Shown: positions 9,290-61,143 of the stretch, one piece after another
Numbering within the stretch: the first letter of the stretch is position 1
How the letters are laid out: each line of letters begins with the position of its first letter
Source of the DNA: Tribonema minus
Taxonomy: Eukaryota > Sar > Xanthophyceae > Tribonematales > Tribonemataceae
Direction: 5' to 3'
NCBI GenBank assembly: GCA_017506865.1
Contig: JAFCMP010000024.1
Span: forward strand, 310,001 to 374,000
Length of the DNA: 64,000 nt
Program-made: the position numbers and the translations under genes
Notes under the pieces: generated by a model
Databases searched by the model: none
The model's input: the letters and a program-made list of their open reading frames with translations, nothing else
Told to the model about the DNA's origin: nothing

Positions 9290-12200
9290 ATGTGTCAGTT
9301 GAGTTTCGCTTTTCTACTAGGGGTAGCTACAGCGTCAGTGGCAGCAGCAACAGCTCCAGCAGCAACTGCGACAGCTGCGGATGTGGATCTTTTGACAAAA
9401 TACACAATCACCACCGCCGTCACCAAAGGTACCATCCTCCTCGTGGTGATACCTGTTGCACTGCTTCATTCGCTGAAAAGGTAACGCGAGCAACCTTGCA
9501 TTACGGCTAGCCAGGCAACGAATGAAATTGTAGTTTGCTCCACAAAGCATTATGGTCCATTCCAGCCTGATGTGTCAAGTTCTCGGTCCGCAGTTGTGCC
9601 ATTTTGTGGCCAACATGAACACAACGCTGTGTTGATATGCGTTTGTTGCTGGCATTCTCTGGCCGCCTGCAGGCGTCGATGAGGACAGCTTACCTCAGCT
9701 CGCTGACGTGCTGTCGGACCTCGGCATCGCCAGCATGTGAGGAACATCACAATTGCACTTCGCATGCGATGATTATGCACCGCGCCTTCATGTACATAGT
9801 CCTCTTCAAAGTTTTCTTGGTCAACGCATGAGCATCGCCAGACCTCGTGCAAAGAACGGAGTTGTAAGCAAAAACTTCTGCCCGGGGACGTTTGTGTCCC
9901 AGAGCTCGGCATCGCCAGCATGTGAGGAACATCACAACTGCACTCGCATGCAATGATTATGCGCAGCGCTTCCATGTAGTCCATTCAGAGTTTGCTTGGT
10001 CAATGCATGAGCATTGCCAGACCCCATGCAAAGAACGGAGCTGTAGCCAAAAAATGTTGCCAGGGAAGCTGTGTCCCAGAGCTCGCACCTCAGAGCCATG
10101 TTTGAGCATAGCAACACTTCAACCGCCGCCTGTAGCGATTCTGCATGACGTGCGTATACCTCTTGTTCCCACGTCACAATGCGCCAGGCAAGCGGCGTTT
10201 CACAAGGGGCAGGTTTTGGACACGCTGACGTTCCTCAGGCTCAAGATGATGGACCTGCGCATGCTGGTGAGAGGGCGCGCTTGCATGTGCTTTTGTGCAC
10301 ATGTGCTGATCAAACATGCGGGCATGCGCGGGGAAAATGCAGTGTGCGGCGCCATTGGTATCTACTGGCGAGAACACACTCTGTGTTCGCCACAGCAGCA
10401 GATTGCTCTGTTCGGAATTGAATTGCCGATCGATGCAGAGGTCCATTGAGTGTCGTCAACCAAGCCACATTCTGGCCGTGCCGTGATTGTGGAAGCTGAG
10501 CGGCGGGATCCGCATGCGGGAGAAGCCAGCGGTACGCCATGCACATGCCCGTGTGCGCATACCAACATACCCATATGTGGCAGGGGGCAACCCCCCCACA
10601 TGCCTCGGATGCGGCGCGACAGGGGTGCGCTTGTGCTTGCGTGCACAATCGCCCAGTACGCACCGGCTCGTATCATACACAGCGTATATGCACAGCTATG
10701 CGACAGTGGAAAGACTGTTTCTTGCCTTGAAGGCATGGAGCTAAATGTTATCTAGTCGCTGGGGATTGCTGGAATACGTCGCGCCATTGCACTTTTATCC
10801 TGATGACGCTGTCATGGTGAATGATGTTAGCATGTTGATGTTTTTTCTGGCGCGTTGAGTGAGGTGGGCTGCAGGGAGATGCGCAGGCTTTGCGGAGGTG
10901 CCATCCGTTCGCTCGCATGTGCAATCAATGCCTAACATCAAACCCTGCATGACCTCACTTGATCGCTTGCGGCAGGGGCTCGACAGAGAACAGATCAAGG
11001 CCGCGCTGGCTAGAATTGAGGAGATCTTGACAACGCCGTCATGGTGGATGACGTTAGGGTGTGATGTTGTTCTGGCGCGTTGAGTGAGGTGGGCTGCAGG
11101 GAAACACGCAGGCCCTGCGCAGGTGCCATCTATTCGCTCGTGTGTGCTCTAATGCTTAATATCAAACCCTACATTACATTACTTGATCGCTTGCGGCAGG
11201 GGCTCGACAGGGAACAGATCGAAACGGCGCTGGCTAAGATAGAGAAGCTGACGGTGGTCACGCAGGAGACACGGACTGAGCCGCACCCGCTGCTGGCAGA
11301 GAGAAATACTTTAGACTACGGCAGGTGGGTGGGTCACGATAACTGTCCTTGTCACAACCACTGCTGTCATTGTGATTATATGCTATTGTAATTGAAAATT
11401 GAACCAGGTACTTCCAGTGAGATATACACGACCTGAAGCATAGGTGATATGTCCAAAGTACAATCGATGCTGAAGAAATATGAGGTGAAATGGAATCGTG
11501 GCTGTTATCTTTCTGTACTCTGTGGTCTGATGACTGTCATCAACGCATTACAGATATCCTGTGTACTTCAACCTGTCCTCCTCTTCATGTTAGTGTCTGA
11601 GCGTTTATTGATCCAGTCTTGATGCAATGGTACATATCATAAACGCTGTTAGTCTCTCAGTTCAAGGAGTCATTTGCTACCCAAAGGTTACAAGCTACTG
11701 CTATGCCCTTTCATACCCTTCCAGCACTTGATCACACTACAAAGTAGTCAGCGAGCAGAGTCTGGATTCCACTGCTCTTGGCGTGTGAACTCAAATGTAC
11801 TGTTTGTTTGAGCTACGTACGACTTGCATCCTTCTATACCCTGTCAGTTCAAGTTGCGTATATCGTGCAGCGTTTTGGCGTATAGCGTCTCGGTTGTTTA
11901 TAGGGTTAGACTCTTAACTGATAGGGTTAGACTAGGGTCAGGGCTACTGTAGTGTTACTTCTAGGTTTGGGGCTACATAGGTTAGGTCGGCATCTCAAAC
12001 TTACCTGTGCAATCACGTCAACTACTCATCAACTCCCACACTCCAGCTGTCTCAGTGTCTTTTACCGCCCCTGCCCAAGTCCAGGCTATTTGTGGAGCGT
12101 TCTGTGAGCAGTTTCGAGTTCTTCACCGCCCACTTTGGAGCAACTGTACCGCTGCACGCAGCGGAGATTGTGTACGCTGTGCCCCCGAACGGCTGCGGTT

Positions 12201-19104: not shown

Positions 19105-19690
19105 TGAAATGAGCAGGTCATAAAGGCGCAGTGTGGAGCCTTGCTATTGAATTGCTTTGTGTTATGCAGAATGCATGTCTGCAGCCGCTGCAGCACATCG
19201 TGCACTGAAGTGCAGCCCTGGTGATTAAGGGGTCACACGGGTGAAGCGCCAAACGGTGGGTGCCACAAGGCAGGGCATGAAGCCTGCACATGCAACCTCA
19301 GATATGTTGACGTGTGGCGGCAGCATGCTCATGAAGGGAAAGCGAAGTTGGCACGAAGAACGTGGGAGTGCGCCCTAGGTGACGCTGTTAGCAATTGCTG
19401 CATCAACACAATTTTTTTTTCTGTGCCTGGATCGACTTGGCACTTGCACTTGCACTTCATGGAGACGCGCGCTGTGGCTATGGCAGACAGGTGGGTGCAC
19501 CGCCAAATCTGCTGCAGAGCTGAAGCCCATTAGGTAAAGAGAGCGTTGTCGATCAAAACGATTTGTGGAGGTCCGATTCTCTTGTGCAGCTCACTTGCCT
19601 TTCCAGAAAAGTTGAACCTCATCTTCAACTTGGATGGCGTAACCGCTACCATAGCAGGGTACGGATGCTGAATGATATAGAACGCTCGCC
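19105..19690. other. spacer between PA/KDEL gene and EF-hand gene
   Basis: 586 bases with no coding signal recognised. It should contain the 3' end of the upstream gene and the promoter of the EF-hand gene. No AATAAA or TATA element was identified with confidence. Confidence 0.5.
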
Positions 19691-22028
19691 ATGGCTACCG
19701 TGCCGAAGCATAAGCGTATTGGTGGCGCAAGAGAAAGGGCAAGGTCAGGAGCAACTCCTGTGGACACAAGCGAGGTCCCTAAGAACAGCAAGGGAGGGGT
19801 GCTGGTGACCGATGAGGAGCTGAGGGCTGTGTTTGAGTTCTTCGATGTAGACGGTCGTGGCGTCATCACATCAACATGCATACGGAAAAGGATGGGGGCG
19901 TTCTATAAGAATATGAATCCACGGGAGTACAAGTTCCTGATGAACAACAAAAGGTGAGAAGTCGCGGTGTGAAATTCCGCTGGCACCTGGCACCATGCGG
20001 CATGCTGATGTTATATCCCCTGAAGCTATGGTCTCAACCTTAGATTTCAATCTTTGAGGATGCTGATTGCCCTGTTGTTTTGACACTAGCTCGAATTGCC
20101 ATCACAAACAATAGGTTGAACTGCTTGGCTCAAGGCGCATCGTGTCCCTGCAAGTGGGCTGTGCAAGAATTTAAGTGTGCGTGAATGGGGAGCGCAGTTT
20201 AGACCTAGCCCTAGTTTTCATAACAAGCTCGTCATCCTTGAATATCAATCTGCAGAAACCACGAACCAGAACGGTCAATAATTGATGATTAGAGACAACC
20301 CTTGTACCTCATTATTCATACTTGAAGTACTTTGAGGATGATTGCAAGCTTTGGAAAAATTCATTGTTGCGTGAACTATGCCGCCATCATATGCAAACAA
20401 ACTCTACTTATAAGCAAATTGAAGAGGTCCATAGGCAACAGTTGACACATCCTCGGTGCTTTTGAGAATGCGTTGCACGCGCTGTCAGCATATGGCAGAT
20501 CGGAAACTTCTGAAACTACTTCAAGAAGCACTATTGATCACGCTCGGAATGCTCTAAGGATGTACAGGACACCCGACCTCCATTGGTGCCGTTGTTAAAA
20601 TAAATTTCACAGTTGCTTCCTACTACTTCTTGCTCAGAAAGCCCAGAAGTATTTCAATAATATGCGGCAGTCTGACAACTCCAGCCATGTAATGCATCGG
20701 CCTTGCGACGTATTGGCAGCACAACTGATTTCCTGGTGGCTGTGCGTGACCAATTTAAGAGACATGGAGAAAGAGTGACGACAGACTGTCAAGACCTACT
20801 TGCGATACACATATGTGATATTGCTTCGATTGCAGTCGCCTTGCGCGAAGGTGTCACCGCTTTGTCACCGCTTTGTCGTCCGCTTGGAATACCACGCTTG
20901 CTTGCGGAGCACAACAGTACTGGCAGATGTGCAGGAGGTTCATGTCGACGTAAAACCACGTTAAACAGTACACGCACATGGTGATTGATGCAGTGCAGAT
21001 ACCATGCGGCAACATTGTGCAAAGACTTGACGTTGAATTTTAAACGGGAGCTCCTGATGGACGATTTATTGCGGCTTGCAACGCACAAAGGCAAGCGATG
21101 TAAAGCGCTCCCTGTCGTGTATATAGAAGTATGGCTGATGTTGCAGCTACCATGTCAGCAGTGGCACGTTTGCCCACGGTTGACCAGTCTGAGCACTGCT
21201 GCTTCACTGTGCACATAACTTCCGCATTTGTGCTCGTGCAGTGAAATGACGCTGAACGATCTGTCATGTTTGCCCATACTTCTAGTTGACATTTCTGACC
21301 ACGGTGACTGCTGCTTCACTGTGCACGAAACTTCACATCTGTCCTCTTGCAGTGAGATGACGCTGAACGATCTGCGGGAGCTGCTGGTAGACAATGAGGT
21401 CACCGACTTTGACCCCGTGGCCGAGGCCTTCAAGGCCTATGACCCCGATGGAACTGGTTACGTAGACGTGGAAGTGCTCCGCACCATCTTCTCCAACCTC
21501 GGCTTCGGTGACATCAACAACGATGACCTGGCGATTCTGGTGGAGGCAGCGGATGTCGACGGCGATGGACAGGTGAGATCCAGTGCTGTGGAAGTTCAAG
21601 TGCGTAGAAGCGTTGTATACTTCAAACACTGCCTAAAGTGGTTCAAAGCTGTAAATCGATGTTCGGAAAGGCCCAAGGGCCAACATCTGATGTGCAAGGA
21701 CTCGTATACTCATGGTCAAACTTGGTAGTCCCATGCTCATGCTCAGCTCAAAGTAGCAGCGACGATGTGACGATTGGCAGATGCGCTGTGTACACACGCT
21801 CTGCCCAACATGATGGCATCGCTCAGTCAGTGCTGTACACCAGTAGCCGAACGTCACACGCTTGCAGAAGGCAGCAGCCTCGCCTGACACTTCATCCGTA
21901 CCCGCCTGTTCATGCTGCAGATTTCCCTCAACGACTTTCGGCGAATGACAGACTTCAACAAGGACTACGGCAAGCCGCACGCGCTGCCGGTGGCAGTCGT
22001 CGGTGAAGAACCGCAGACGTCATCATGA
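19691..22028 (+). CDS. calmodulin-like EF-hand protein
   Basis: Three exons: 19691-19953, 21353-21572 and 21921-22028. The ATG context is gccATGg, all introns are GT-AG, and the phases close to 196 residues. A basic, low-complexity N-terminus (about 35 residues) precedes four EF-hand-like units. Unit 1 has the loop DVDGRGVITSTC, unit 2 is degenerate around 'EMTLNDLRELL', unit 3 has DPDGTGYVDVEV, and unit 4 has DVDGDGQISLND. Only the last loop has the acidic residue expected at position 12, so calcium binding is likely strongest there. Length and layout fit the calmodulin/centrin-like superfamily of calcium sensors. The target is unknown. The third exon ends in a short 'EEPQTSS' tail. The first intron (1.4 kb) carries copies of the exon 2 acceptor. 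Confidence 0.88.
21026..21303. repeat. junction echoes of EF-hand exon 2 acceptor
   Basis: A unit of about 115 bases at 21189-21303 duplicates 21304-21371: 'ctgctgcttcactgtgcac', then an acceptor ending 'gcag' followed by 'tgaaatgacgctgaacgatct'. An older, weaker copy of the exon start lies at 21026-21070 ('gggagctcctgatggacga'). The true exon is the last copy, because only it stays open to the donor at 21573. Confidence 0.85.
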
Positions 22029-22119
22029 GGCATGACTCGACGGCTCTGACTCCGGCTCAGTACCCTGTGCCACGCCTCTGGTACGCCAGCTGCTGGCAGA
22101 GTCCAGTACTCTGTGTAGT

Positions 22120-22125
22120 AATAAA
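22120..22125 (+). terminator. AATAAA polyadenylation signal of EF-hand gene
   Basis: A canonical AATAAA lies 92 bases after the EF-hand stop codon on the same strand. No cleavage site can be read from DNA alone. Confidence 0.5.
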
Positions 22126-23236: not shown

Positions 23237-23259
23237 GGCCTCCCTTGGGGCCTTTATTG
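23237..23259 (+). repeat. retroelement 3'-tail fragment
   Basis: 'ggcctcccttggggcctt' plus 'tat' matches the 3' tail of the retroelement near 43282-43302 ('ggcctcccttgggcctttat') with a one-base length difference. It sits 120 bases beyond the last recognised DUF3638 exon. On the minus strand it also provides an AATAAA. Confidence 0.55.
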
Positions 23260-23378
23260 AAAAGATGTACAACTTGCAACACATGTTGCAACGCACGTAA
23301 TTGCAGAAATGCACGTAATTGCAGAAATGGCCAGATGCAGGGCACGAGTGACGTGCCGGCCTGTACACAGAGACTCAC

Positions 23379-26300
23379 GCTGAGCTGTGACTTGACTTGC
23401 GAGACTTCGACGGCACCAGCGGTAGCGGTGACGCCGTGGTCGATGCGCCAGCGCTTGCGCAGCGCCAGCAGCAGCACGCTGTGCGCGAGCAGGCCGCGCA
23501 GCGTCAGCGCCCACGCGCGCGGCGCGCCGCCCTCCGGCAGCAGCGCCAGCGCCGTCGCGAACGCCGCGCCGTCCAGGCGCGGCTCCAGCAGCAGCAGCCG
23601 CAGCAGCGCGAGCTCGTCGCCGCGCAGCACCGGCAGCGGTGCCTCGCCGCCCGCTGCAGCGGCGGTGGGCATCAGCAGCGCGTCTGCTGTCTTCTGTATC
23701 AGCGCCTCGCCCGCTGCATGGCTCAGTAGGCGCAGCCGCGGCAGGCCGCCGCTGCCCGGCGCCGCAGGCTCGAACTCGACGTGCTGGTCGCCGAGCTCGT
23801 GCGCGAGCGCGCGCGCGGCGGCGGCGGCGGCGCGCAGCGCCGCGGTGGCGGCGCGCCAGCGCCACACGCCGCCGTCGACGCCCTCCTGCGCGCCCACGGT
23901 GTAGACGAGCTGGAAGGAGTTGCGCAGCACCTCGGCGACCTCATCGATGACGTTGCGCGCGTGCCGCGATGACCAGCGCAGCAGCGCATGCAGCGCGGCG
24001 GCGGCGGCGGCGTCGACGCGGCGCGCGCAGTCCAGCTGCTTGAGCTGCAGCGACGCGCGGTGCTCCGGCAGGATGAGCAGCACGCCGCGGCGGTCGCGGC
24101 ACTCCCTGAGCACTGCCAACATCGTGTTCGCCTGTGCGCAAGGTTCATACGAGGCAGCAGCGGGCGTGCGCCTCCTGAATACTACTCCATGTCGAGCATG
24201 CGTTTGTTCTACATTGCGTGGGGCATGAAAGGCACGTGAACATGGAGGTGCTACAGTAGCTTGCAGGCTCAGATACACTGTGGTGTGGCCTTTCTTCTGG
24301 CAGCTTACAACATGTGACATTGCGCTGACGTGAGCGTGCTAGTCGGACAAAAAGCCTCCAAGAGGTCGACATTAAGGGACATAACGGTGAGTGATGGGTC
24401 GATCTCACCCCCCAGGCGGTCGACAGGAGCCCCACAAATTACAAAGAGTCGCAATTCATGGTGATTGGACCTGATCATGACTAGCCTGCAGTGCACGACA
24501 CGGTGTGTAGGCGCTTTGCGGACGCTTGCACTGTCTGGTCTCTCAAGCCATCGTACGCAGTATCAGTGCAGATACCGTGCGTACTGATGCACGGCGTGTA
24601 CCGCGCGTACTGATACACGGTGTGGATGTGTGTGCCTGTGTTTGTGTAGCTTGTGAGCTGTTTTTGCTTCCATCATCGAGATTATTTCATAAAAACAAGT
24701 GAGTACAGAACACTGGCAATCGGTTGGCTGTCTCGTGAAATCCTTTGAAACAGGTTGGTTTTATAATTTTTGCTGGGCTTATTTTTTATTGAAGTTGTGG
24801 CGGCGGACAAGTCCTCCAACCACGTGCGGCAGTACAGCGTGACATGCAGTTGGAGCATGCTGACAACAGGCGCAGCACCAGTCTCATGTTCCCTTGTTTG
24901 GGCCATGGCAGTTTTTAAAAACATGCCTACGATAAGGTACATGGGTGCCTTCACTCCCATGCCGTTAGACCAGGTAACAACTGTTTGTGAAAAGGGCTGT
25001 GTCGAGGTGAACACACTCATGCTTATGAAAAAAATCGTGCTCTGTATGAAGAAGCATAGGCATCGACGCATGCAGATAGACACTGGCCGCAAACCTGCAT
25101 AGCCTCGGGGCCTCATGTCTGTTCGCACAAGCAACGCATATGATTACAGCGACAGTCCCTCTTCATCGTCGGCACCTTGGCTGGCTGACTCCATCTCATT
25201 TGGCGGCTTTGGTCGAATAAATAATAAATAACAAACAATTTTTTATTTCAGCAGTAGTTTTTGAAATAACCATGTGTGTGTAGATGCAGTGCTCAGTAAT
25301 GCTGCCCCGGCCTGGCCTCCGTTGGCGTCTTCTGAAATTGGAAGCAGATTTGATATTCCTAAGAGCTAGTAGATGCTCGCCATGAATAGAAATCACTTGA
25401 TTACATACATCGCACATCGTATACGCACCGCACCTCATACTTCAGAGTACACGACCGAAATACGGCATGTGTATGTATGAGCATGCCACGCACCAGCAGT
25501 GCGCGACGCCGTGATCCATGTCCCTGCGCACAGGCAGGCTGTCCCTGCGCACAGGGTTGGGATTAGGGTTATGCACAGCAGCGCTCAGCACGTCACCCCG
25601 CCGGCCCAACCGACTACTACATGACCCCGCCGAAAGGGGGGAGCTTAGGGTCACGCACACATCTTCAAGTTGTTCAGAGCTTCATCATGTAGACTACATA
25701 CGGTATGGGTCTGGCGGGCACCTGCGCGACGCCGAGGTCCATGTCCCTGCGCACGGGCAGCGTGTAGAGTCGCCGCCCGAGCAGGCCGCCGAGCCTGTCG
25801 CTGAGCAGCGCCATCGCCGCAGCAAACAGCGGCGACGGCACCGTGATGCGCATGAGGTTGTCGCCGTCGGCCAGCGTCGCCGCCAGCATGGGCAGGATGA
25901 CGGATGTCTTGCCCTCCCCTGCAGAGAGAGCGTAAAATGTCATTGTTGAAGCGGGTCATTCGTGGTTCTGCAGCTGATGCGACGTTGCAGGCGCTGGCGG
26001 TGACTGTCATGCAGCGCTTCGGGCGGCGACAATAACAAGCGATGCACATTGTAAACATGCACATGTGAAATCACGCATACATAGCTCATTAAGTCCGTCT
26101 GCGTGGCCACCTGTACGTCGCTGAGGCGACGTTGGTCCAGCAAGCAAGAAACACTCTGGCAGGCTGGATGATCAAAGCTTGCTCAATCTATTGGCAGTAA
26201 CATTCCCACAGGCGCTGTTACAAGCTCTATGAGGCACTCAGGCCAAAACATACCATGTAAGGCTTACCCATATTGAGTTGCATTGACGCGTTCTGCCCTT

Positions 26301-38028: not shown

Positions 38029-38063
<35 letters not shown>

Positions 38064-42500: not shown

Positions 42501-43240
42501 TGGCAGCAGCCACGATGAATTTGGTTGCGATCTTTATAGACGGGTGGGGCATACAGGGCGAGGTGTGCCCATGGCGGTGCAGTGACGTGAGCCCCACCTC
42601 CACGCATGCGATCAGCTGCCCCAGCCAGCACATACGGGGGCACAACGCGACACACACTGCCCAAAAGCGGTGCCTACAGCGCATCTTGAGACAGCACCAT
42701 GTCTCTATTGTCCGCAATGAGGACGCTAGCGTCTTCAAGGTACCGGGGTATCGGGCGGACACAGTCATTGACCCAGGGTGTCTGCACTTTAGCAGTGCAT
42801 ACCGTAACAAGGGAATAGTGCTAGACACAAGTGTGCGCGCGCCCACAGCGAGCTCGTACCTGACAGGCAAAACAAATGCCTCGAACACGGACGGCTATGC
42901 TGCTGGGGTGGGGGAGGACGCGAAGGTCAAGCACCACACCGGCACCTTGACGTCATCTTCGGCTTTTGTGCCATTCGTGCAGGAGTCGTACGGACGGCTG
43001 GGCAAGCAGACAAGCCTTTTTGTTAAGGAGTTGGCAATGCACTCAGCACTGTGCTCAGGGGGGGGGAAGGCAGATGCGTTACGCAAGGCCGGGTTAGCTA
43101 AGCGTCAGATCCACATTGAGCTGAGCATATCGCTGGCGCGGGAGTTGGCGGAGCGCGTCATGGCATACACACGTGGAGCGCGAATGCTGGGCTGTGTTGC
43201 GGCGCCGGTATCCAAACTCCTAGGGCGTAGCGCAGACTAG
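39557..43240 (+). CDS. reverse transcriptase / RLE endonuclease polyprotein (one in-frame TGA)
   Basis: The frame is open from 39557 to TGA 41810-41812 and continues in the same frame to TAG at 43240, about 1225 codons. RT motifs are 'LDGLRYEHL', 'RPIACCSVWRKLLGS', motif A 'IQLDCENAFNSVDR' (Asp at 40598-40600), motif B 'CQQGDPLGPLYFA' and motif C FLDD at 40922-40933. The last has Leu where most non-LTR RTs have Ala. A Lys in 'RPDKSLAIAM' fits motif D. Downstream are 'CPWRC...HAISC' spaced like the Cys/His finger of RLE elements, 'YRADTVIDPG' and 'GIVLDTSVRAP', matching the Asp-rich endonuclease core of R2-like LINEs. One stop in 3.7 kb suggests fairly recent activity. Readthrough is possible but not shown. 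The initiation codon is unclear. Confidence 0.75.
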
Positions 43241-50200: not shown

Positions 50201-53200
50201 GGCTGTATGAGCGCTGCTGAGCGGATGCTGCGCGCCTGCGCCTTTGTCAGCCTGTGATGTGGGAAGTGGTAGCGTTGTTTGTCAGCCTGTGGTATGGGAA
50301 GTGGAAGTGTTGGAGCTACTTGTCAACAACACGTCCGCATTGCGAGAGATCGCCGACCTGCAGGCATAGAGCGAAACTAGGAGCACTGCCAACATCGCTG
50401 CCGCTGTTAAACGGACGCTGTGCGCCTGCGCCTTTGTCAGCCTGTGATATGGGAAGTGGCGTGTGTGTCAGTGAATGGAGTTCACTCATATCTGTGCAAT
50501 CTACAACTCAATCTGTGGACTCTGATTGATGTCTGCACGAGAGTACATTGCACGATGTCCTGTGCGCTGATGGGAAAACCACAAGTGAATGCATGGGAGG
50601 AGACACGGAGTACGCCGCACCTCCATCAAGCGCGTTGACGAGCAACTTCATGCGACGCTCCAAGAAACGAGGCGCACGACAAGGAGACTGGGCGCACGAG
50701 AGTGTGTCAGTGCATGAAATTCACCTCATACTTTATTGAGTACATAGTGCGTTGAGGGAGAGCGTCGGCCCGCTAGCACGCACCTCAGAGCGACGCGGCA
50801 CACAACCGCATGTATGTGTGACAAATGGGGGGGGGGGGGGGTGGCAGAGTGCACCTCCGCGCAGCCTCATCTCAACCCCCCTGCGAACCAAGCGCGCGGT
50901 TCACTGCGCACTCGACAACATTGCGCACAAAACTCATCATCAAAACCTTCGTGCGGTCCACTGGGCACTCAGTGACGTTGCGCGCAGAACCACGTATATA
51001 TAGCGCTTGAAGTGTTGTGTCGTGATGATTTGAAGTAAAATGAATAATCCGAGTATTGTGTACTTGTCAGTGTGTAAAGTCTCACCCGCTGACGTGCGCC
51101 AGATTTCACCATCATGAAAGTCTCCAAGCAAACCGAACCCAAACTTCGTGAATCAAGCGTGCGCACCACTGGGCACTACACCAGAGAGAATTGCGCGTAT
51201 TTCAAAGTATAAGATACACTGCCAAGTATACTCATGAAGTATCCTTCATAAAGTCTCACCCGCTGACGTGCGCCAGAAGGGGCTCGCTGGCCGAGTTGAG
51301 CTCCAATTGAGTGTGCGGTCCTCTGGACACTAGACAATATTGCGTGTAGTACCACTTATATATACATGTACACTTGTATATACTGAAGTACATGAGTATC
51401 AAGTATCAAATTACGATGCATGCTTTGAAGTATGGCGCATCAAGTCTCACCCGCTGACGTGAGCCAGAAGCGGCTCGCTGGCCGAGTTGAGCTCCACGCC
51501 GACCTCCGCCACGCAGTCGCACACCGTCTCAAACAGGCGGTCGTTGAGCTCCTTGGCGGGCAGGTCGTGCTGATACATACCTACCCCTGGGAGCGCGCGC
51601 GGGGATGCAGGTGAGGCGCCACGTTGCGCCCGCACGCTGCGTACTAGTGCTGAAATACATGCATATCCCTCGTGACCGCGCAGGGGTTTGAGCTCGTCGT
51701 GCTGATACACATGCCTACGCCTGAGAGCGCGTGGGGATGCAGGTGAGGCACCACGTTCACGTTGCGCCCGCGCGCTGCCTGCGGCATTGACTAGTGCTGA
51801 TATACATGCATACCCCTCGGTACGCGCAGGGGTTCGCCTTTGAAACGCGCACGTTTATGCCCCCGGAAGATGTATGGGGATGCAGGTGAGGAAACATTGC
51901 GCCTGCATACGCCCTTCAGCCTGTGCATGGGGTGCCAGTTACGTGACATGTTGCTCCCGTGCGCTGCCGACAGCATTCAACAATGCGAGCGATCGGCGCC
52001 GGTGCTCAAACAGGTGATGCGATCTGCGCCAGTGCTCAAACAGGTGACGCTGGTGCATGCTTACGACTGATACAATGGCATGAGCGAGTACCGCCGGGCA
52101 GGCAAAGGCATGTTCACCAGAGACTCAAGCGCTGGCATGATTTGAGAAGTAGCGCGCGGTGCGCTGCGTCCTGCGCATGCACGAGGTTGCCAAATTTGCG
52201 GGACCTAACATCGCCTGTTCCCAATGTGCACCTGAAGCTCGAAGATGACGTGTTCTTTTTGCAAAACACAATGGAACCCATGTACTTCAAGTATGCACAA
52301 ACAAATGTTTCTCAATTAACCCGACACCTGCGAAATTTGGGGATGGCAGTGAGCGCCATGGCAAGCGCGCCGGACACGTCCATGTCACGGGATACGTACG
52401 GTATCGCTTGCCCACTCTTTCAAGTACTTGAGGAAAGCACTTCTGATCGCGAGCGACGCACCTAGCGCCGAGGGCTCCACCTTGACGAGCTCGCTGAGGG
52501 GGTCTGCCAGCCTGCGCCCTATCGATACGGCGCCGAGCGAGGAGCAGTCCACCCCCGGGAACTCGGACGCGGCGGCCGCGGAGACGGACCAGACGCTGGC
52601 GCCCGCCTCGCTGACGGTGACGCAGCGCACTGACGTGGCAAAAGCGCAGGGGGTTACGCACCAATGAGGTTCGTGATGCATTCGCGCGATTACGACGCAC
52701 TTGGTGCGAATGCTCGAAAGACCCTGGTAATGGACACATATGCGTTTGAGCGAGAGTGTGTGCATTATAAGCCAGTGTGGCAGCGAGCGGCAAATACAGG
52801 GTGCGCAGACGGACCAAATGCTGGCGCCCGCCTCGCTGAAATACATGCAGTCGTCACGTCGGACACTTTGCGTGGACGCGCGCTTTTTGCTCGTCGCGAT
52901 CACGCTGACCCCACCAGTTCATACGTACATGCATGCTCACTGCGCAGCGTATGACATCACGACGCTTCCATGTGCAGTCGTATGGTGACGAACTTCGGCT
53001 GCCCCTGCCGCCACAGGGGATGGTACTCAAATGCACTGGGACTTTCTTGCACAAAGGGGGACCGAAGCAGGCGTCGAGTCACGTGACCGGTTTTTGTCGC
53101 ATGTGACTGCCACGCGAAAAATCGTCGTCAATCACAACACCAGGCATGAGCCATACAAAACATCATTCATCACAACATCACCAGGATCCCAAGAGAAGTC

Positions 53201-56200
53201 GCGTGGCACCGTACCTTGGCTGCCCCTGTCGCCGAGGGCGGCGCGCGCCTCAGCGATCAGCTGCTGCGCCTGCGCGACGCCCACGCCGTTGCCCAGCGCC
53301 ACCACCTGTACGCCGTGCGTCTCGATCATGGCGGCGACGGCCTTCACAGCCTGCCCTCGCGCGGCTGCAGCGGCGGCGGCGGCGGCACACCGAGCAGCGC
53401 AGTCAGAGTCCGCTGATGGGTTCCAGGATGTTTCGTTTGAACATACACTGTGGAGACATGGGATGATTAAGTTAGGAGCTGATGCAAGGCAAGCACGGAC
53501 CATGGCTAACCTCGCGGCTGCAGCAGCAGCGGCAGCGGCGGCACACCAAGCAGCGCAGTCAGAGAGTCCGCTGAGGGTTCTGGGGCCTGGTTTCTGAAGT
53601 AAATTCAGAGATGAATTCACAAATTTGTCAGGATTCATGAAGCGTTTGAGAAACAGCGCAGTTCAGTTGGGGCCGTCGCGCGGCAGCGGCAGTGGCGGCG
53701 GCAGGGGCGGCACATCGAGCAGCGCAGTTAGAGCCTGCTGATGGGCTCCAGAATGTTTTATCTGAAACAGATTTCCGGAGGCGTGGGATGATTGAGTTTC
53801 GAGCTGATGCAAGGCAAGCAGGGACCATGGCCTGCCCTCGCGCGGCTGAGGCGGCGGCACACAAGCAGCGCAGTCAGAGCCGCTGGTGGATTTTGCGGTA
53901 CTTTTTGTCTGTTGGTCTCCTGATTACAAAGGCATTGTGTGGTTGAGTTTGGAGCTGTCTCGAGGCTGGCGGAGGCCAAGTGCATGCCGAGCAGTTTTAT
54001 CTTCTTCTAGATATGACACCCACCCCGGAAATGTGCAACCGTGACTCCAAAGCATTACCAGTCGAAAGGCTCATCGCGGAGCACGGCTGCAGGTTACAAA
54101 CATCAGTGCAGGCATGTGGACGTGTTTGAAGTATTCTTTGACTGAGGTACTTCAAGTGCGTCACAGTTTGAAGCACAGCCACCCGCAGGTGTGTGTTGAT
54201 GCGCACCTGCGTTGTTGGCGTACGGCAGTATCGTCTTGAGCTCCAGCACCTCGCTCTGCGGCCCGAGCGCGGCCAGCTTGACGCCGTGCTTGAGGCCGGG
54301 GTCCACGCCTGTGGGTAGGTAGGTATGGCACACCGCGCAGCGGCATACATGAGAACACTATTCCACAATTAGTGGTCCTCCCTTTCTGGCGTGCGCAGTT
54401 GCGCAAGCACAGAATGCAGCATTGCGCTTGAAGAGTGACAGGAACAACGGGCAGAGCAGACGCCATTCGTGCTATGACGGCTGCACGCCCTGCTCCACCT
54501 TCTATCAGAAAGCAAACCAGGGTGCTCCCAGTGCGCGCCCCCCCGCGTGATGTCAATCTTCAACGGTGACGCGCCAGCGGTGTGCTGCTAAGGGCAACGC
54601 GCAGCGGCGTTGTGGATGGTAGCTATGAGGCCACAACGGGGGGGGGTTTCGTTGACCGTCCGGCGCTGTTGACTTAAGCAGCTAGCGTGGGTTTGACCAT
54701 GGCGACGCTGATGGTGGTGCGCGGCGTGTAGCATCGGCGCGCACGGGCGGCGTAAAGAAGCGCGCAAGGGCAGACGCGCTGCTGCACAATTCAATACTTC
54801 AGCAGTGACGCGCCATCGGTACTGCAAGCGACTGCAAGGCTCGCCGTCGGTGGCCACGCGCGCGCACGTCCCATCGGGGCGCACGCCTTGCACGGAACGT
54901 AACCGTCCACGACGCATCGTATGTCCTCTCAACTGCACCTTGCACCAGCAGGTGCGCCAAACTCCCAAGGAACATTGAAGCGCAAACTGGCAGGGAGCGG
55001 CACTCTTGCGAGCGACATGATCGGGCCAAGCCATGCGCATGCTGAGCGCTGCTGACCTAGGATGCGCGTGTCGCGCAGCGGCGGCGCCAGCAGCGCGGCC
55101 CTGAGGTTGGACGCAAACGCCTCCATGCCCGCGGTGTCGCCCTTCCTGTCAGGACAGACACGCGGACGCGCATTCGCATACACAGCAGCTCAGCGGACGT
55201 GCGACAAAGGGCATGCGCATGCCCGTGTGAATCATGCAGAGTAGGAAGACTGATGTGAAAGACCGTCGAAGCTGGGGCGCAGCGAGCTACGCATTAGTAG
55301 CGAACGCCTCCATGCCCGCAGTGTCGCCCTTCCTGCTGGACATGCGGACGCGTACGCGCATACGCAGCAGCTCAGCCAACGCGTGACTATGGGAACACGT
55401 GTGCCTTACCTTAATCATACGTGAAGTACGAGGTCTGATCTGATGTTGTTGTGAAGCTGGGCTCAGTGTACTATGTACCTGTGGCGTGTGTGACATACTG
55501 CTCGGTTCATCACATGTGTACTAAATCGCAGCAGCAGCGGCAGAAGCGATGGCAGCAGAGAACCTGTCAGGCCCATGCCGTCAAGAACTGATCCATCGCG
55601 TTGCAGTGCTTCACGCTGATTGCAGTTGCACACAGGGCAGTTGCGCTCGGGGAACATGCGCACAGCGGTGACTTCAAGGTTGCATGTGTCCTCCAGCATG
55701 CGCTGAACCCATGCAAGTGAAAAATTACACCTCAGACATTGCAACGCGTAATGGCCGAACAGGGCCCGCACCTGTAGCCCTCGTTGAGCACTTCGCGCTG
55801 GATACTGAGCGCTCACACTTGCAATGCGTCAACTGCAGTCGGTTTGTGCACTTTTCTGCTGCTCAGATCAGATACCGCAGAGCATGCAAGGCACTCGACC
55901 GCGACGGCGTGACGGCCCAGGAGAACTCGCACCTGCAGCCCTCTTTGAGCACCTCGCGCTGGATGCTGAGCGCTCACACTTGCAACATGTCAACTGCAGT
56001 CGGTCTGCGCACTTCTGTGCCTGCTCAGATCAGACACTTCAGAGCATCTCAAGCACGCGAGCGCATCAGCATTCAGGCCTTGAAGCTCCCGCACCTGTAG
56101 CCCTCCTTGAGCACCTCGCGCTGGATGCTGGGCGCGAGGAGCCGCTTCCACGCGTCCTGCGCGGCGGCGGCCAGGCAGTCGTTGGCGGCGCGGCTGCGCG

Positions 56201-58117
56201 GCGCCGGCGGCAGGCTGTGCAGTATCTGCGCAGCAGCAAGGGACAAAGGGGCGTAGATGCATGTGGCAGTCAGTCTTGATGATGGCGATGACAGGGGCAT
56301 GCAGAATTCGCCCAGGCGTGCATGATGATGCACAGGCAGTCGCTGGCGGCGCGGCTGCGTGGCGCTGGCGGCAGGCTGTGCAGTATCTGCGCAGCAGCGG
56401 GGAACGCCGCGATACAAACGCACGTGGTAGTCAGTCTCAATGATGGTATGCAAAGTTAGTTCATGGAGTGCATGATGATGCTTGGGCAGTCAGCAGCCGC
56501 GCGGCTGCGCGGCACAACACACTCGTGGTATCTCATTTTGAAGTGCAGTGGCTGTACTCTAGCAGTACACAAAGGCACTCGCTGAGTACATGCCCCGCTG
56601 TACGTGCAGCGGCGGCGGGGCTCGCCGGGCTAGGGTTAGGGAGGGGGTTGGCATGCCGCTCACTGCGCCCAGCCTCTGCTCATCTGCCGGCTTGACGCGC
56701 CCGCACGCAGCACCAGCACACGCGTCCGACGGCAGTCAACAGCTCCGCCACTTGCAGTACCATCAGCGCCACCTCACCTGGGCCCGCACATGCCCAACAG
56801 CACGCGAACGCACTGCAGCTGACAAAGTCACTGCTGCATCTCATGGCGTCCAGCGCCTGTTCGTCCACTGCCACGTACGGCGTGGCGATCACCAATGCTG
56901 CGCCTACAGGCCAAGGCGCCTGGCAGTGCTCAGATGCCCCACGGCGTGCGCATGAAAAAGCAGTACAGGTGAAGTACCGCCCATCTCTTCACTTCAACTT
57001 TTGCCGCGGCAGCGTCACTTCAACAGCTCACCCACGCCTCCAGCACCTGCTTGTTCACAAGCAACATCATGTACTACCCAAAACTGTGTCAACTTCACCT
57101 TCTCCTACCAGCGTCAATCCGACAGGTGACTCACAGCCTCCATAACCTGGTCGTTCGCCGCCGCGTGCAGCTTCACGTTCATGTCGAGCACCTGGTCGCT
57201 GGCCCCCAGGTCACTTGGCCTTTTCTTGCAGCACTTCAACAAAACGCACTCATCTACCGCGTCGAGTGCCTGCCTGTTTGCGGCCACATACAACTTCACG
57301 TACTACCCAAACCAACACCAGCTGCAACTTTTACCACCAGCATCGCTTCAGTCAGTGACTCACCGCCTCCAGAACGTGGTCGTTCGCCGCTGCATGCAGC
57401 TTCACGTTCACGTTCAGCGCCTTGGCCGCCGAACAATGCACCAACTTCAACTACCACCACTCAAGCATCACTTCAACGCCCCACTCACCGCCTCCAGGAC
57501 GTGGTCGTTCGCCGCCGCGTGCAGCTTCACGTTTACGTTGAGCGCCTTGGCGGCGGCGCCGCGCCGCAGCGCGAGCCACTGGTGCCCCTGCACCTCGCGC
57601 ACGACGCAGTCAAAGCCGTGGTAGTGGCTGAAGTCCGCCTCCTGCGCGGGGGCGCCGCCGCCGCCGCTGCCGCCCTTCTTGGACGCGGCCTTCTTGGCGC
57701 CGCTCACGTAGCGCAGCGGCGCGGCAGTGATGAAGGCGCTGCGCTCGATGTGCGCGCGCGCGGCCTTGCGCGCAGGCGCCCAGCGGCTGATGCGCTCCGC
57801 CAGTATCTGGGGGTGTGCGGAGGGGGGGGGGTGCGGTGTCTCACACGTTGTGATTGTGTGCACGCGGGGGACGCCTAGTTGTATTTACTGCTGGATAACA
57901 TGTACATGGCCGGTGCCCAGAGGCTGATGCGCTCTGCCAGTGTCTGGAGAACGCGCAAGGGGTGCGGCGTGATGCTTCATGTGTGTGTGTGGAGAAGCGG
58001 GGGCTCTATATGTAATAAGTCATCAAATGTATGTAATGTGGCCTTCAGAGCACATGTATGTCGCCTTGCGCACGGGCGCCCAGCGGCTGATGCGCTCCGC
58101 CAGTATCTGCGGGCAGG

Positions 58118-58150
<33 letters not shown>

Positions 58151-61143
58151 TGTGTGTGTGTACACATGTATGTCTTATACTTCTCTGAACACCATGTTGA
58201 ACAACATGTGTGTGGCCGATGCCCAGCTGCTGTTGGCTCCAGCCAGTGCCCGAGGGCGCGTGCTCCGCGGCGGAATGAGCAGTATGTTACAGGGGACTGC
58301 CATGGGGGTGGGGTCGGGTGTGGTGGAAGGGGGGGTTGGGGGAGATGGAGCCAATTTGCCCTGCGGCAAGGAGCATGCAACAACAGTCCTCTGTTTGCGC
58401 AATAAATGGAGGCGCCATACCTCGAACAAGAGCGTCGGCAGCGACAGCTGCAGTGACACTCTTCACCTTCATGTTCAAGTCGAAGATCGCACAACACAGT
58501 GAACAGCGCACCCACATGATTCACCGCGGCATTCATCCCCCCCCCCATCAAAGCGAGTAATTGAGTTCAACTTCAAAATTGAATTTTTTCTGCTCACCAT
58601 GGCCGCGCCGTCGAGCGCCTCCGTCTGCTTGGTGCGGCTCTGCGACAGCTGCCACAGCAGGGTCTCAAAGCTGGCGCCGGGGTCGTCGGTGCTGGTGACG
58701 CCCCACGCCGCCTCCGCGAGGGGACCTGATGAAGCAGCAGCGCTCAGCGCGTCAGGGGGGTTGAGGGTGGGGTCAGGCGGCGCGCGCGCGCGCTCAGGGA
58801 TATGCGCGCGCGGCACGCATCTAGTGAATCAGAGGCGTGATATGCAGGGATGACTGTCAAGGCACGATGTCAAAGCGTGATGCGGCGTGCATACAATGAG
58901 TGAAACACGCGGGATACGCGTTGATGACTGTCAAAGCACACTGTGAGAGGCGCTGCCAGAGGCGTCGGCGCCGGCGGCGCCGCTCACCGCGACCGCAGCA
59001 CGCCCGAGTTGAAAGCAGTGCTCAGCGTGCTGCGCTTGCAGCATGGCATGAGCCGTGCAAGTGCATGCGGCGCACGCGACCAAGGGCCGTCGGACGTGAC
59101 GGTGCACTGTAGCCAGCAATCACCGCTGGCCCACCTTCCTCTGACAGATGGGCCCCTTCTCACGGCAACTGACAAAAAGATGCGCATGAAGCACGCAGCA
59201 GTGCAGGCGGTGCTCGAAGGGATCATGCGCACATGTACTCCGACGGACCGCTGAGAGCCCCAGATAGACCCCAAATCTACATGTGGAAACACCTCCGCTC
59301 CCCGCACGTCTCATATAGATCGCCGCACCGGGTTATGTGACGCCTATGCGTCACGCGCTGTAAGCGCGCGAGCAAGCCCCGCGACAGTACCGCCGAGCAC
59401 ACACGTTACGGCTCGCTGGCGAGTACGCGGGCATGCAGTAGTTCAACAATGGAAGTTCAACTGCGCGCACGCGCACTTATAAGCACGTGAGCAAGCCTCA
59501 TGACAGTACCGCCGAGCACACGCGCTTCAGCTCACTGGCGGGCACGCGGTAGTTCAACAAAGGAAGTTCAACTGCTCGCGCGCACGCACCGTAGCCGGCC
59601 TGCCGCGCCGCGTCCGCCTTGGTGATCCGCGTGCCCTTAAAGGGCGCGTACACGTCGTCGAGCGCCGTCACCGAGTCCGCCTCGTTGATGGCGGCGCGCA
59701 GCTCGCGCGTCAGCTTGCCTGCGCGGCGCAGCCACCAGCAAACTGATCAGGATGCGCAATGGGCTCCAGCGCTCAAGTGCAGGCTTGGCGTAGCCACACT
59801 GAACTGATCATGATGTGCAGTAGGCGCTGCTGCGCAGGTGTCAAGAATCCGCTTCGCCGGTGCTGAGCGCTTCCCCCGGCAGTGCGCTGCTGCCTCGCTG
59901 CCATACGGAGCGCTGATGCTGAGCTGTTTAGGGTGCGCCCATGCGTCAACTTACTGGCAGTCATGCATGCGGGTACCGCATGGGATATGTGTCAAACAAT
60001 GTGTCGAACAAAAGCAACACAGGGCGTACTACGGCAGTCCGTTCAGACACACAACAGTTGATGGCCAGGCGTAGATGGCAGGTTCTTGTGAGCAAGCGCG
60101 TACTGGTGCAGTCAGATGACATGAATGAGGTACAGTTTTGGTACCAACACTAAGGTTGAACAATTCCAACGATTACCCCCGCGTCCGCATGCTGGCCTGT
60201 ATTAGCCCGATCACTCGCAGAAGCAGTATACCTTGGAACGATGTCAAGTAGCAGCTTTAGCGTTCCTCTGAACCCATGCCCAACACAAACGTTGAGCTTC
60301 ATAAGCATGGCCGTTCTTTTCCCTTCAACATTTTAGTTACCCAGATGCAGTGGCATCCCTTGCCCTCCTTCTGTTGCTCTGAAACAGAAGATTTTTCGCG
60401 CATTCCAACAGACCGGCAATGAGGCTTGACATCATGACCATCCTTCCCCTCTGACACATGTGAGTTCACCAGGCAGATTGAACGAACGCAGTGCCCCCCC
60501 CCCCCTCGATCATCTGTGGGAAAATACATCATTAAGAGACTTGTACAGTCCACCAGGAGTCCAGACTCACCCTGTCTAGAGATGGCCGCCATGATCCCCT
60601 CCTTCTTTGCCACCAGCGTCTTCCATTTGTCCAGCAGCGAGCCCACAGAGCGCACCAGCTCTGGCGTCAGCCCTCCCGTGTGCTCACGCCTGTACCTGCA
60701 GATGAAAGGCACTGCGGGGTGGTGCGCAGTGGCACAGGAAAAAAATTAGCGTCAGCGGTTGGCCAGATAGCGTGCGGGAGTTCATGTTTTGAGTGGCGCC
60801 CATCCTGGCCTGCGCGCCAAGGCGACGAATAAAATCTGCGTTCTTCGCCAGCTCACACGCCGAATGCAACAGAATGCGGCAAGTCATGGGCCTGTGTGAG
60901 CGGTTTATGCGGTCACAAGGTCAGAATCACGGACAGCTGCAGCTACGAGCAAGAGCAAACGCTGCTTGAAAGGGCGCTTTTAAACTAAAGATACCGTTCT
61001 CAGCTCCTCAAACCAGGGCCCTCGACTTGGCAAGGCATACCTGTGCAGCCGTCCCCAAGGAGCATTGCGCATGCTGCTACTTGACTTTCTCGCAGGTTGA
61101 GCTGCGCCGCCGCATGGCGATGGAACTCGCTGTTCAGGGCCAT
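44241..61143 (-). CDS. SRBD1: Tex/SRBD1-type S1 RNA-binding transcription accessory protein, 18 exons
   Basis: Exons, high to low: 61143-61041, 60711-60571, 59718-59590, 58725-58598, 57806-57489, 56225-56095, 55145-55057, 54308-54207, 53364-53215, 52629-52462, 51586-51451, 50251-50134, 49727-49721, 48836-48739, 46818-46690, 46213-46119, 45406-45346, 44687-44241. All are GT-AG and sum to 2550 nt (849 residues). The Tex N-domain (1-330) includes '[15 protein letters not shown]', '[13 protein letters not shown]' and '[12 protein letters not shown]'. The YqgF/RNase H-like domain (about 335-485) includes '[12 protein letters not shown]', 'VVALGNGVG' and 'SEAGASVWS'. Helix-hairpin-helix motifs (about 487-606) include 'GMYQHDLP', '[11 protein letters not shown]' and '[12 protein letters not shown]'. 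The S1 domain (about 649-725) includes '[13 protein letters not shown]' and '[17 protein letters not shown]'. The last 120 residues are an Ala/Gln-rich tail absent from bacterial Tex. The family binds nucleic acids in transcription and RNA processing. No frame break was found. Confidence 0.93.
46832..46907. repeat. poly-G tracts G11 and G22
   Basis: G11 at 46832-46842 becomes, on the gene's strand, the C-run of the polypyrimidine tract of the exon 15 acceptor (46819-46820). G22 at 46886-46907 lies 40 bases further into the same intron. Both are slippage-prone and could form G-quadruplexes on the plus strand. Confidence 0.85.
48240..48540. repeat. junction echoes of Tex/SRBD1 exon 14 donor side
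   Basis: The exon end at 48735-48775 ('gccgccgtcaggatcgcgcg', then 'cgccatgccgtagct') recurs at about 48493-48530 ('gccgccatcagaatcgcgc', then 'atgccataccgcagct'). More weakly it recurs at 48425-48455 and 48250-48285. Confidence 0.7.
49721..49727 (-). other. SRBD1: 7-nt microexon of Tex/SRBD1 (exon 13)
   Basis: On the minus strand GCTGCAG is flanked by acceptor '...catcag' and donor 'gtacgtga'. Exon 12 ends at phase 0 after 'KAFQQ' and exon 14 needs one preceding base. Inserting this heptamer gives 'AFQQAAGFLRI', the expected Tex sequence. Without it the residues AA are missing and the frame shifts. Confidence 0.75.
50275..50460. repeat. two junction echoes of Tex/SRBD1 exon 12 acceptor
   Basis: 'gcctttgtcagcctgtgat' at the true junction (50240-50258) recurs as 'gtttgtcagcctgtggta' near 50277 and 'gcctttgtcagcctgtgat' near 50430. 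Each is followed by 'gggaagtgg'. The upstream copy includes 'gctgtgcgcctgcg' from the exon. Confidence 0.8.
50827..50841. repeat. poly-G tract G15
   Basis: A homopolymer run in a Tex/SRBD1 intron with no coding content around it. Confidence 0.9.
51077..51310. repeat. two junction echoes of Tex/SRBD1 exon 11 donor
   Basis: The junction 'aagtctcacccgctgacgtg' at 51442-51461 recurs at about 51259 (with 35 further bases of exon, 'ggctcgctggccgagttgag') and at about 51081. Both copies keep the GTGAGA donor on the minus strand. Confidence 0.88.
51690..51900. repeat. junction echoes of Tex/SRBD1 exon 11 acceptor
   Basis: The exon start and intron end at 51565-51640 ('tcgtgctgatacatacctac', then 'ggggatgcaggtgaggc') recur at about 51697-51760 and partly at 51793-51900. 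The unit is about 135 bases. Confidence 0.8.
52795..52850. repeat. junction echo of Tex/SRBD1 exon 10 acceptor side
   Basis: 'agacggaccaaatgctggcg' followed by 'cccgcctcgctga' copies exon bases 'agacggaccagacgctggcg' at 52579-52613. The echo translates in part as '[12 protein letters not shown]', a degraded copy of '[12 protein letters not shown]'. Confidence 0.8.
53515..53890. repeat. three junction echoes of Tex/SRBD1 exon 9 acceptor
   Basis: The exon start, Ala-rich intron end and 'agcagcgcagtcagag' block at 53355-53412 recur at about 53512-53565, 53676-53735 and 53832-53885. The period is about 160 bases. Each keeps variants of 'catggcctgccctcgcgcgg'. Confidence 0.85.
55290..55345. repeat. 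junction echo of Tex/SRBD1 exon 7 acceptor
   Basis: 'gcgaacgcctccatgcccgc' followed by 'agtgtcgcccttcctg' copies 55110-55149 ('cgcaaacgcctccatgcccg', then 'cggtgtcgcccttcctg'), including the acceptor region. Confidence 0.88.
55690..55980. repeat. junction echoes of Tex/SRBD1 exon 6 donor
   Basis: The donor junction 'cgcacctgtagccctccttg' at 56090-56109 recurs as 'cgcacctgtagccctcgttg' at about 55768 and 'cgcacctgcagccctctttg' at about 55929. Each is followed by 'agcacctcgcgctggatgct'-type exon sequence, and a faint third copy lies at 55690. Confidence 0.88.
56330..56520. repeat. junction echoes of Tex/SRBD1 exon 6 acceptor
   Basis: 'gcaggctgtgcagtatctgc' at the true acceptor (56210-56229) recurs at 56372-56391 together with about 45 bases of exon ('tggcggcgcggctgcgtgg'). 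A shorter copy lies at about 56485-56515. Confidence 0.85.
56835..57435. repeat. about five junction echoes of Tex/SRBD1 exon 5 donor
   Basis: The true junction at 57480-57535 ('actcaccgcctccaggacgt', then 'ggtcgttcgccgccgcgtgc') recurs at about 57357, 57252, 57123, 57028 and 56845 with increasing decay. The 57357 and 57123 copies keep a minus-strand GTGAGT donor. The 57123 copy still reads '[16 protein letters not shown]', against '[16 protein letters not shown]' in the exon. Confidence 0.9.
57905..58260. repeat. three junction echoes of Tex/SRBD1 exon 5 acceptor
   Basis: 'cccagcggctgatgcgctcc' plus 'gccagtatctg' at the true acceptor (57779-57809) recurs at about 57916, 58079 (nearly perfect) and 58218 (weak). 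The 58079 copy keeps the acceptor and reads '[11 protein letters not shown]'. Confidence 0.9.
58119..58161. repeat. TG microsatellite
   Basis: About 21 TG units with one interruption, directly beside the best acceptor echo of exon 5 in a Tex/SRBD1 intron. Confidence 0.95.
59365..59600. repeat. tandem repeat at Tex/SRBD1 exon 3 donor side, unit about 118 bp
   Basis: 'gacagtaccgccgagcacac' occurs at about 59382 and 59501, and 'ggaagttcaactgc' at about 59451 and 59562. The second unit runs into the exon 3 donor at 59589, so the copied segment is mostly intron. Confidence 0.85.

Follow-up and report, generated by a model that had tools for sequence, protein, structure and literature searches.

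The Tex/SRBD1 gene of Tribonema minus, a yellow-green alga of the Xanthophyceae within the stramenopiles, raises the question of how the ends of its exons come to be repeated inside the neighboring introns, and whether the duplications responsible fall on splice junctions more often than chance would place them there. The window considered here is a 64,000-nucleotide stretch, positions 310001-374000 of contig C24 in the 158.2-Mb, 554-contig genome. The original prediction for this window described segments spanning exon-intron boundaries that are copied into the adjacent intron; we refer to such copies as echoes.

Gene models and splice-site set

The Tex/SRBD1 exons were placed with our own spliced aligner, which demands AG and favors GT, using P0241, a EukProt ORF that carries a Trinity transcript name but is given without its source species. 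Eighteen exons are recovered, of which 16 are identical to P0241 throughout, one matches at 105 of 106 residues, and the last, a low-complexity exon, matches at 140 of 148 residues with one gap. This transcript-derived sequence aligns to the gene without any echo. The alignment also implies a micro-exon of seven bases at 49721-49727, and a PDB search with the whole Tex stretch returned no hits.

The splice-site set joins Tex/SRBD1 to four CCT chaperonin genes (CCT1, CCT3, CCT7 and CCT8) and comprises 45 introns and 90 junctions; six of the 10 CCT gene places in the genome were taken whole. CCT3 and CCT8, modeled from annotated T. minus proteins, have the best gene models, albeit with a badly placed first CCT8 exon, and owe these models partly to their richness in echoes; CCT1 and CCT7 were modeled from human chains. 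CCT2 and CCT4 have incomplete models and stand outside the family counts given below, CCT2 having no local duplications at all. Three pairs of sampled loci (L049/L050, L062/L063 and L073/L074) lie on different contigs and share 99.9-100% identity across 3 kb, and are either uncollapsed haplotypes or very recent duplicates; L049, L063 and L074 were excluded from the family and ladder analysis as near-identical twins. In the consensus of the 45 modeled introns the polypyrimidine tracts of the acceptors are mostly poly-C.

Structure of the echoes

The five genes contain 74 local direct duplication pairs in 31 families, and at least eight exon bases are present in 24 of these families. Where a copy includes exon bases its partner lies, by coordinates, in the adjacent intron, and the copies combine exon and intron bases with the GT or AG mostly kept. 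As DNA, the echoes are direct duplications that stay local; a head-to-tail arrangement is visible in many of them, with near-full-length adjacency in several families, and the duplicated unit is a stretch of one exon end together with part of the neighboring intron. None of the 74 pairs has exon in both copies and none in the five-gene listing is labeled as a whole-exon copy, which bears out the expectation that these are unlike ordinary exon duplications. At a loose threshold echoes are found at 33 of the 90 junctions, compared with 50 of 737 control tests on non-adjacent introns; strong echoes number 39 copies over 20 of the 90 junctions, so that the predicted boundary-spanning copies in adjacent introns are real. 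Of the 39, 37 still have an intact splice dinucleotide, as the prediction that GT or AG would often be retained had anticipated. Scored by a matrix derived from the 45 real introns, 15 of the 39 echo sites equal or exceed their real site and 24 fall below it, but the modeled proteins use the exon-adjacent splice site and not the echo site.

The smallest spacing within the exon-touching families ranges from 79 to 225 bp, lying between 119 and 204 bp in 22 of the 24, and exceeds that of the other families (P = 0.0008). The exon part is 16-135 bases long with a median of 46.5, and is 16-76 bases in 22 of the 24 families. The median length of introns with echoes is 949 bp, against 658 bp in the comparison for donors (P = 0.002) and 712 bp in that for acceptors (P = 0.018), and donor and acceptor echoes tend to share introns (P = 0.007). 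The copies had been described as decaying with distance, and there is a tendency in this direction but not a rule: in six of 10 ladders divergence is lowest for the nearest copy, and 24 of 34 within-ladder pairs (our own count) behave likewise.

Direct pairs greatly outnumber inverted ones, at 59:2 in the CCT loci, 37:5 in the LHC loci, 9:1 in random loci and 28:0 in the window, and mononucleotide shuffling of the six CCT loci yields no duplications. Two arrays, those at the exon 4 and exon 5 donors of Tex/SRBD1, were searched against the whole genome, and each finds its own locus only. Some alignments end 3-7 nt into the intron, which suggested an exact cut at the splice site; we reject this interpretation, because many copies show intron homology and the alignment stops are better explained by the faster divergence of introns. 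C-tracts as a trigger were also considered and dropped (P = 1.0 for donors and P = 0.17 for acceptors).

Echoes in Tex/SRBD1 and neighboring genes

Self-comparison of the window reveals 33 repeats. Of these, 26 are duplications both direct and local, with a spacing of 57-481 bp, and the three inverted ones are all distant. Tex/SRBD1, on the minus strand at 50-59.6 kb, holds 18 of the 26 (Table 1). Ten of its duplication families include exon bases and an eleventh begins 7 nt past a donor; strong echoes are present at seven of its junctions. In the exon 9 family the match lies wholly inside the exon side and does not cross the junction.

Echoes had been claimed for all four spliced genes of the window. 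This stands for Tex/SRBD1, whose splice sites are placed by protein alignment, while the cases in the EF-hand, PA and DUF3638 genes depend on splice sites read from the sequence alone. One further candidate, a 90-bp tandem repeat at 33221-33386, falls within an open frame next to the exons of DUF3638 (the frame itself has no Pfam hit). It has the look of a duplication internal to an exon and not of an echo, and since its length is a multiple of three the frame is kept.

Table 1. Positions of echoes, their source segments and related duplications in the window.
Feature	Position	Strand	Evidence
Tex/SRBD1 exon 2 (exon 59590-59718): tandem duplication from 7 nt past the donor, no exon bases	59352..59583	-	self-comparison and duplication listing
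Tex/SRBD1 exon 4, echoes on both sides	57489..57806	-	spliced alignment to P0241, 105/106 residues
Exon 4 acceptor-echo source	57763..57813	-	self-comparison and duplication listing
Exon 4 acceptor echo, 137 bp, AG kept	57909..57947	-	duplication listing and junction scan
Exon 4 acceptor echo, 300 bp, AG kept, 94% identical	58063..58113	-	duplication listing and junction scan
Exon 4 donor-echo source, 66-72 exon bases plus GTGAGT	57439..57560	-	duplication listing and junction scan
Exon 4 donor echo, 125 bp, GTGAGT kept	57316..57429	-	duplication listing and junction scan
Exon 4 further donor echo, 354 bp, GTGAGT kept	57056..57206	-	duplication listing and junction scan
Tex/SRBD1 exon 5	56095..56225	-	43/43 residues against P0241
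Exon 5 acceptor-echo source	56172..56363	-	self-comparison and duplication listing
Exon 5 acceptor echo, 161 bp upstream, with 51 of its 54 exon bases identical	56333..56513	-	duplication listing and junction scan
Exon 5 donor-echo source	55907..56135	-	self-comparison and duplication listing
Exon 5 donor echoes with GTGCGA and GTGCGG, 162 and 323 bp, 41 exon bases	55746..55973	-	duplication listing and junction scan
Exon 6 (exon 55057-55145) acceptor-echo source	55113..55211	-	spliced alignment and duplication listing
Exon 6 acceptor echo	55300..55393	-	duplication listing and junction scan
Exon 8 (exon 53215-53364) acceptor-array source, just 10-16 exon bases	53353..53573	-	spliced alignment and duplication listing
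Exon 8 acceptor-side copies	53672..53885	-	duplication listing
Exon 9 (exon 52462-52629) source segment, begins 15 nt within exon	52578..52614	-	spliced alignment and duplication listing
Copy of 37 exon 9 bases in upstream intron, 225 bp upstream	52803..52839	-	duplication listing
Exon 10 (exon 51451-51586) acceptor-echo source	51564..51688	-	spliced alignment and duplication listing
Exon 10 acceptor echo	51696..51834	-	duplication listing and junction scan
Exon 10 donor-echo source, 46 exon bases plus GTGAGA	51426..51496	-	duplication listing and junction scan
Exon 10 donor echo, 191 bp, GTGAGA kept, 44/46 exon bases	51235..51305	-	duplication listing and junction scan
Exon 10 donor echo, 365 bp, GTGAGA kept	51075..51103	-	duplication listing and junction scan
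Exon 11 (exon 50134-50251) acceptor-echo source	50212..50285	-	spliced alignment and duplication listing
Exon 11 acceptor echo, TCACAG kept	50402..50471	-	duplication listing and junction scan
EF-hand gene, copy of acceptor type at 112 bp	21195..21374	+	EF-hand domain match; splice site read from sequence
PA gene region head-to-tail 227-bp copy with exon-like end	10797..11247	+	splice site read from sequence
PA gene region, copy of acceptor type at 169 bp with 92% identity	15504..15763	+	splice site read from sequence
DUF3638 gene, copy of donor type, 38 bp long, 223 bp away	25500..25760	-	splice site read from sequence

Sequence evolution and sister genes

Differences between exons and their echoes are found at 52 of 761 first, 49 of 761 second and 114 of 757 third codon positions (6.8, 6.4 and 15.1%; P = 1.8e-9), the pattern to be expected of an exon that changes at silent sites and a non-coding echo that drifts. 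In the nearest copies the intron parts carry 0.229 substitutions per aligned site, in addition to gaps, compared with 0.090 in the exon parts.

Light-harvesting genes on contigs C79 and C1 (loci L046, L047, L052 and L053) form two sister pairs whose members differ in whether they carry echoes, with the C79 copies having no local duplication and the C1 sisters having arrays of two echoes each. In one pair a single acceptor region in the C79 gene corresponds to three in tandem in C1, and in the second, at the same two loci, the array is likewise present in C1 only; at L053 the units are young and head to tail, each with intron upstream and exon downstream. The simplest reading of these sequences is that the arrays were gained in the C1 line, although an older duplication may since have been lost in C79. 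We had considered that shared changes between sister genes might date the echoes, but a recount of exon sites led us to reject this: for the nearer echo of each pair, sites at which only C79 differs number 2 and 11 (13) and those at which only the C1 exon differs 1 and 5 (6), an imbalance that leans toward a gain in C1 (P about 0.08, one-sided, by our arithmetic, and unrooted). Sister genes with and without echoes could nonetheless date the process once an outgroup is added.

Distribution among genes

Echoes are very unevenly distributed, being present at six of 16 junctions in CCT3, eight of 14 in CCT8, nine of 34 in Tex/SRBD1, one of 10 in CCT7 and none of 16 in CCT1, and because of this unevenness the duplication families cannot be treated as independent draws. 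CCT1 and CCT7 have one family each, both without exon bases, and at the loose threshold they contribute one and six weak records respectively. In CCT4 five of eight families are exon-touching; one family starts 5 nt inside an exon end, one involves an unmodeled stretch and one is interior. Comparable echoes elsewhere in the genome occur in CCT3, CCT4, CCT8 and some light-harvesting genes, so that the suggestion of a genome-wide process is upheld insofar as several genes are affected, but these counts do not establish a genome-wide rate. Protein-level scans of kinesin and myosin genes recover few echoes, as expected with exon parts so short; by eye, two kinesin pairs, near 701 kb on C246 and near 562 kb on C511, are shaped as expected. 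Dense local duplication arrays are also seen at the overlapping loci L006 and L007, where they take up 52-58% of the sequence, and at the random locus L079, where they take up 26%.

Probable junction bias and random duplication

Random duplication will also yield echoes, since copies made across a junction are harmless and exon-internal ones are not, and since the conserved exon keeps old echoes visible. We therefore built the null in three ways, two of them forward simulations over the real exon-intron structures (random sequence, rates set by us, uniform duplication and purifying selection) and the third an implantation of duplications into real introns. In the first simulation a mean of 38-44% of families are exon-touching, and the observed 77% (24 of 31) is reached in none of 160 runs; with rates near the observed divergence the mean is 35-55% and the observed value is reached in none of 200 runs. 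The implants predict 39% (P = 1.5e-5). Restricting the comparison to young families of matched age gives 13 of 20 exon-touching against 30% expected (P = 0.001), where the 13 is our count of nearest copies below 9.6% exon divergence and the 30% our sum over the three youngest implant bins. The exon part is also shorter than in the implants (median 46.5 against 71 nt) and exceeds 76 nt in two of 24 families against 45% expected (P = 1e-4), although a rule that 50 intron bases be kept per unit lowers the null median to 55-64, and the short exon part may thus partly reflect selection.

Because Tex/SRBD1 is the gene through which the finding arose, we give the comparison without it: 14 of 20 families are then exon-touching, with P = 0.005 against an expectation of 39%, 0.03 against 47% and 0.13 against 55%. 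Adding CCT4 gives 29 of 39, or 19 of 28 without Tex/SRBD1. With the exons masked the excess at junctions is weak and marginal, the observed 11 of 25 being matched in two of the 160 runs of the first simulation and 10 of the 200 of the second (12 of 360). The proposal that duplication breakpoints depart from random placement relative to splice sites is thus partly supported in the five genes by an excess at junctions in the main tests, but only marginally so when exons are masked.

Could uniform tandem duplication nonetheless account for the data, with exon-internal and whole-exon copies purged, junction copies visible for longer and no junction bias at all? Duplication is clearly not confined to junctions, in that 22 of the 27 LHC and random families lie away from anchor exons (some may touch unmodeled exons) and four of 10 random 3-kb loci contain a local duplication of some kind; exon-echo pairs do remain visible longer, the fraction detected among the oldest implants being 0.64 against 0.00, and the exon-masked test shows a marginal excess only. 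Set against this are the exon-touching fraction, which lies above the simulated expectations and the age-matched one, the shortness of the exon parts, and the different spacing of the junction families. Ordinary random duplication is on these grounds a poor fit, and we consider it unlikely as the whole explanation, while giving it serious weight. A bias of duplication toward junctions in this small sample of five genes is likely. If it holds, such a bias would tie the breakage or repair of DNA to the architecture of genes and would provide a mutational route to long introns.

A stronger form of this conclusion is that duplication is aimed at junctions, in units of about nucleosome length (mostly 119-204 bp) that take in about 50 exon and about 100 intron bases by our estimate, at donors and acceptors alike and repeatedly, with breaks placed as if set by chromatin or co-transcriptional splicing. 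This is a tentative possibility, doubtful on present evidence, and the proximity of the unit lengths to the nucleosome repeat is a lead only; such a process, if real, would amount to a standing, junction-coupled engine of intron growth.

Origin of the echoes

The explanation that we favor, and consider reasonably probable, is local tandem duplication of DNA, with junction-straddling products surviving or forming above the uniform rate and ladders of copies lengthening the introns. Local break repair or slippage, involving filled-in staggered ends or short microhomology, would create the duplication. Because the modeled proteins use the exon-adjacent site, the spare half-exon is intronic and the protein is unchanged, and it is as part of the intron that junction-straddling products can survive. 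Purifying selection on the real exon would then keep old echoes recognizable, and copies accumulating as a ladder would extend the intron. The elevated rate at junctions could have a mutational cause (chromatin or transcription) or reflect splicing constraints on survival. The direct orientation, the adjacency and the overlaps at the joins fit end joining of filled-in staggered breaks, or slippage; in four young copies outside the five genes the overlap at the join is -2 to +3 bp, and as these were pre-filtered for near adjacency only the overlap is informative. Older copies have diverged too far for their joins to be read in this way.

It had also been suggested that echoes are selected as decoys, and spare sites with matching exon context might indeed tune splicing. 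The retention of GT or AG in the strong echoes exceeds what the faster intron substitution rate predicts (P = 0.002), many echo sites score as well as the real one, and the exon parts of the echoes are less diverged than intron sequence; yet the same retention is unremarkable when judged by how far the adjoining exon part has diverged (P = 0.11), the majority of echo sites score under the real site, sister genes differ in whether they have echoes, and CCT1, CCT2 and CCT7 have none or weak ones. We regard selection for decoys as improbable. Tandem duplication is an established source of introns (PMC4974935, PMC2891723, as outlined there), which lends some interest to the proposal that echoes are a by-product of intron gain, by duplication of an exon segment containing AGGT, or of intron sliding, but intron gain would leave exon in both copies and splice sites in register, and this signature is seen in none of the 45 introns and none of the 74 pairs; we consider this origin highly improbable. 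Much the same can be said of RNA-mediated copying, in which fragments of splice sites are reverse-transcribed and captured beside their own gene. While the exon parts are short and rather even in length, and a reverse transcriptase domain is present in the window (39557-41812), the copies carry intron bases in direct orientation within the adjacent intron, often as arrays, neither of the two arrays searched recurs at another place in the genome, and the young head-to-tail units of L053 have the wrong structure for such capture. Least probable of all is an artefact of assembly or polishing, since the strong copies are 0-20% different from the exon and show the codon-position pattern, neither of which is expected from assembly errors.

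Relationship to known systems

In tandem exon duplication exon sequence is copied in tandem within a gene, and single tandem duplications at exon borders are already known; the Tribonema copies differ from tandem exon duplication in consisting of part-exons only and in being absent from the modeled proteins. Small tandem duplications arising from the fill-in of staggered breaks have reportedly been obtained in plant nickase work.

Fill-in of staggered breaks made by nucleases in mammalian cells is described as giving small tandem duplications that are end-joined, mostly without microhomology, and the enzymes involved are described as well (PMC8355091). Tandem copies are common to that system and this one, but in Tribonema the breaks are unobserved, and the copies are mostly spaced at 119-204 bp and clustered at splice junctions. 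The potato RdRp gene, in the account given in PMC4974935, similarly has a local tandem duplication that includes exon and splice signals; there the duplicate reproduced the existing intron-exon structure, whereas the Tribonema copies lie inside an existing intron, create no new intron and recur at many junctions of one genome. Introners likewise shape intron evolution through spreading copies of a sequence, but as characterized in PMC9860276 they are dispersed and create introns, while the Tribonema copies are local in both of the arrays searched. We reject an introner or transposon identity for the echoes, with the two arrays found at their own locus only, the copies lying inside modeled introns and no introns created in coding sequence. 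Direct repeats at exon-intron borders are also the subject of Rogers and Bendich 2025 (PMC11782384), where those described are of 4-30 bp and occur at the two borders of one intron; in Tribonema they are longer, and one border is copied into the intron. Our searches of the open-access literature yielded no account of half-exon copies that straddle junctions repeatedly within one genome, and no report of a genome in which they are present at one junction in four, or more, in several genes. Whatever gave rise to them, the 39 strong echoes in the five genes are spare splice sites, duplicated in nature together with their exon context, beside which the modeled proteins use the exon-adjacent site, and they constitute a ready test of exon definition.

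Other features of the window

At 39557-43240 lies an extended open frame that encodes a reverse transcriptase domain (RVT_1, E 1e-8) and is followed by a second open frame; this looks like a LINE-type element. Open frames are present at 9-9068 and 62908-64000, repeated three times in direct order and, near the window end, once inverted, with 75-82% identity, and we take these frames to be ankyrin-like from their appearance. Interstitial telomere-like repeats (AACCCT/TTAGGG) occur at 13672-13709, 17683-17749 and 36529-36617.
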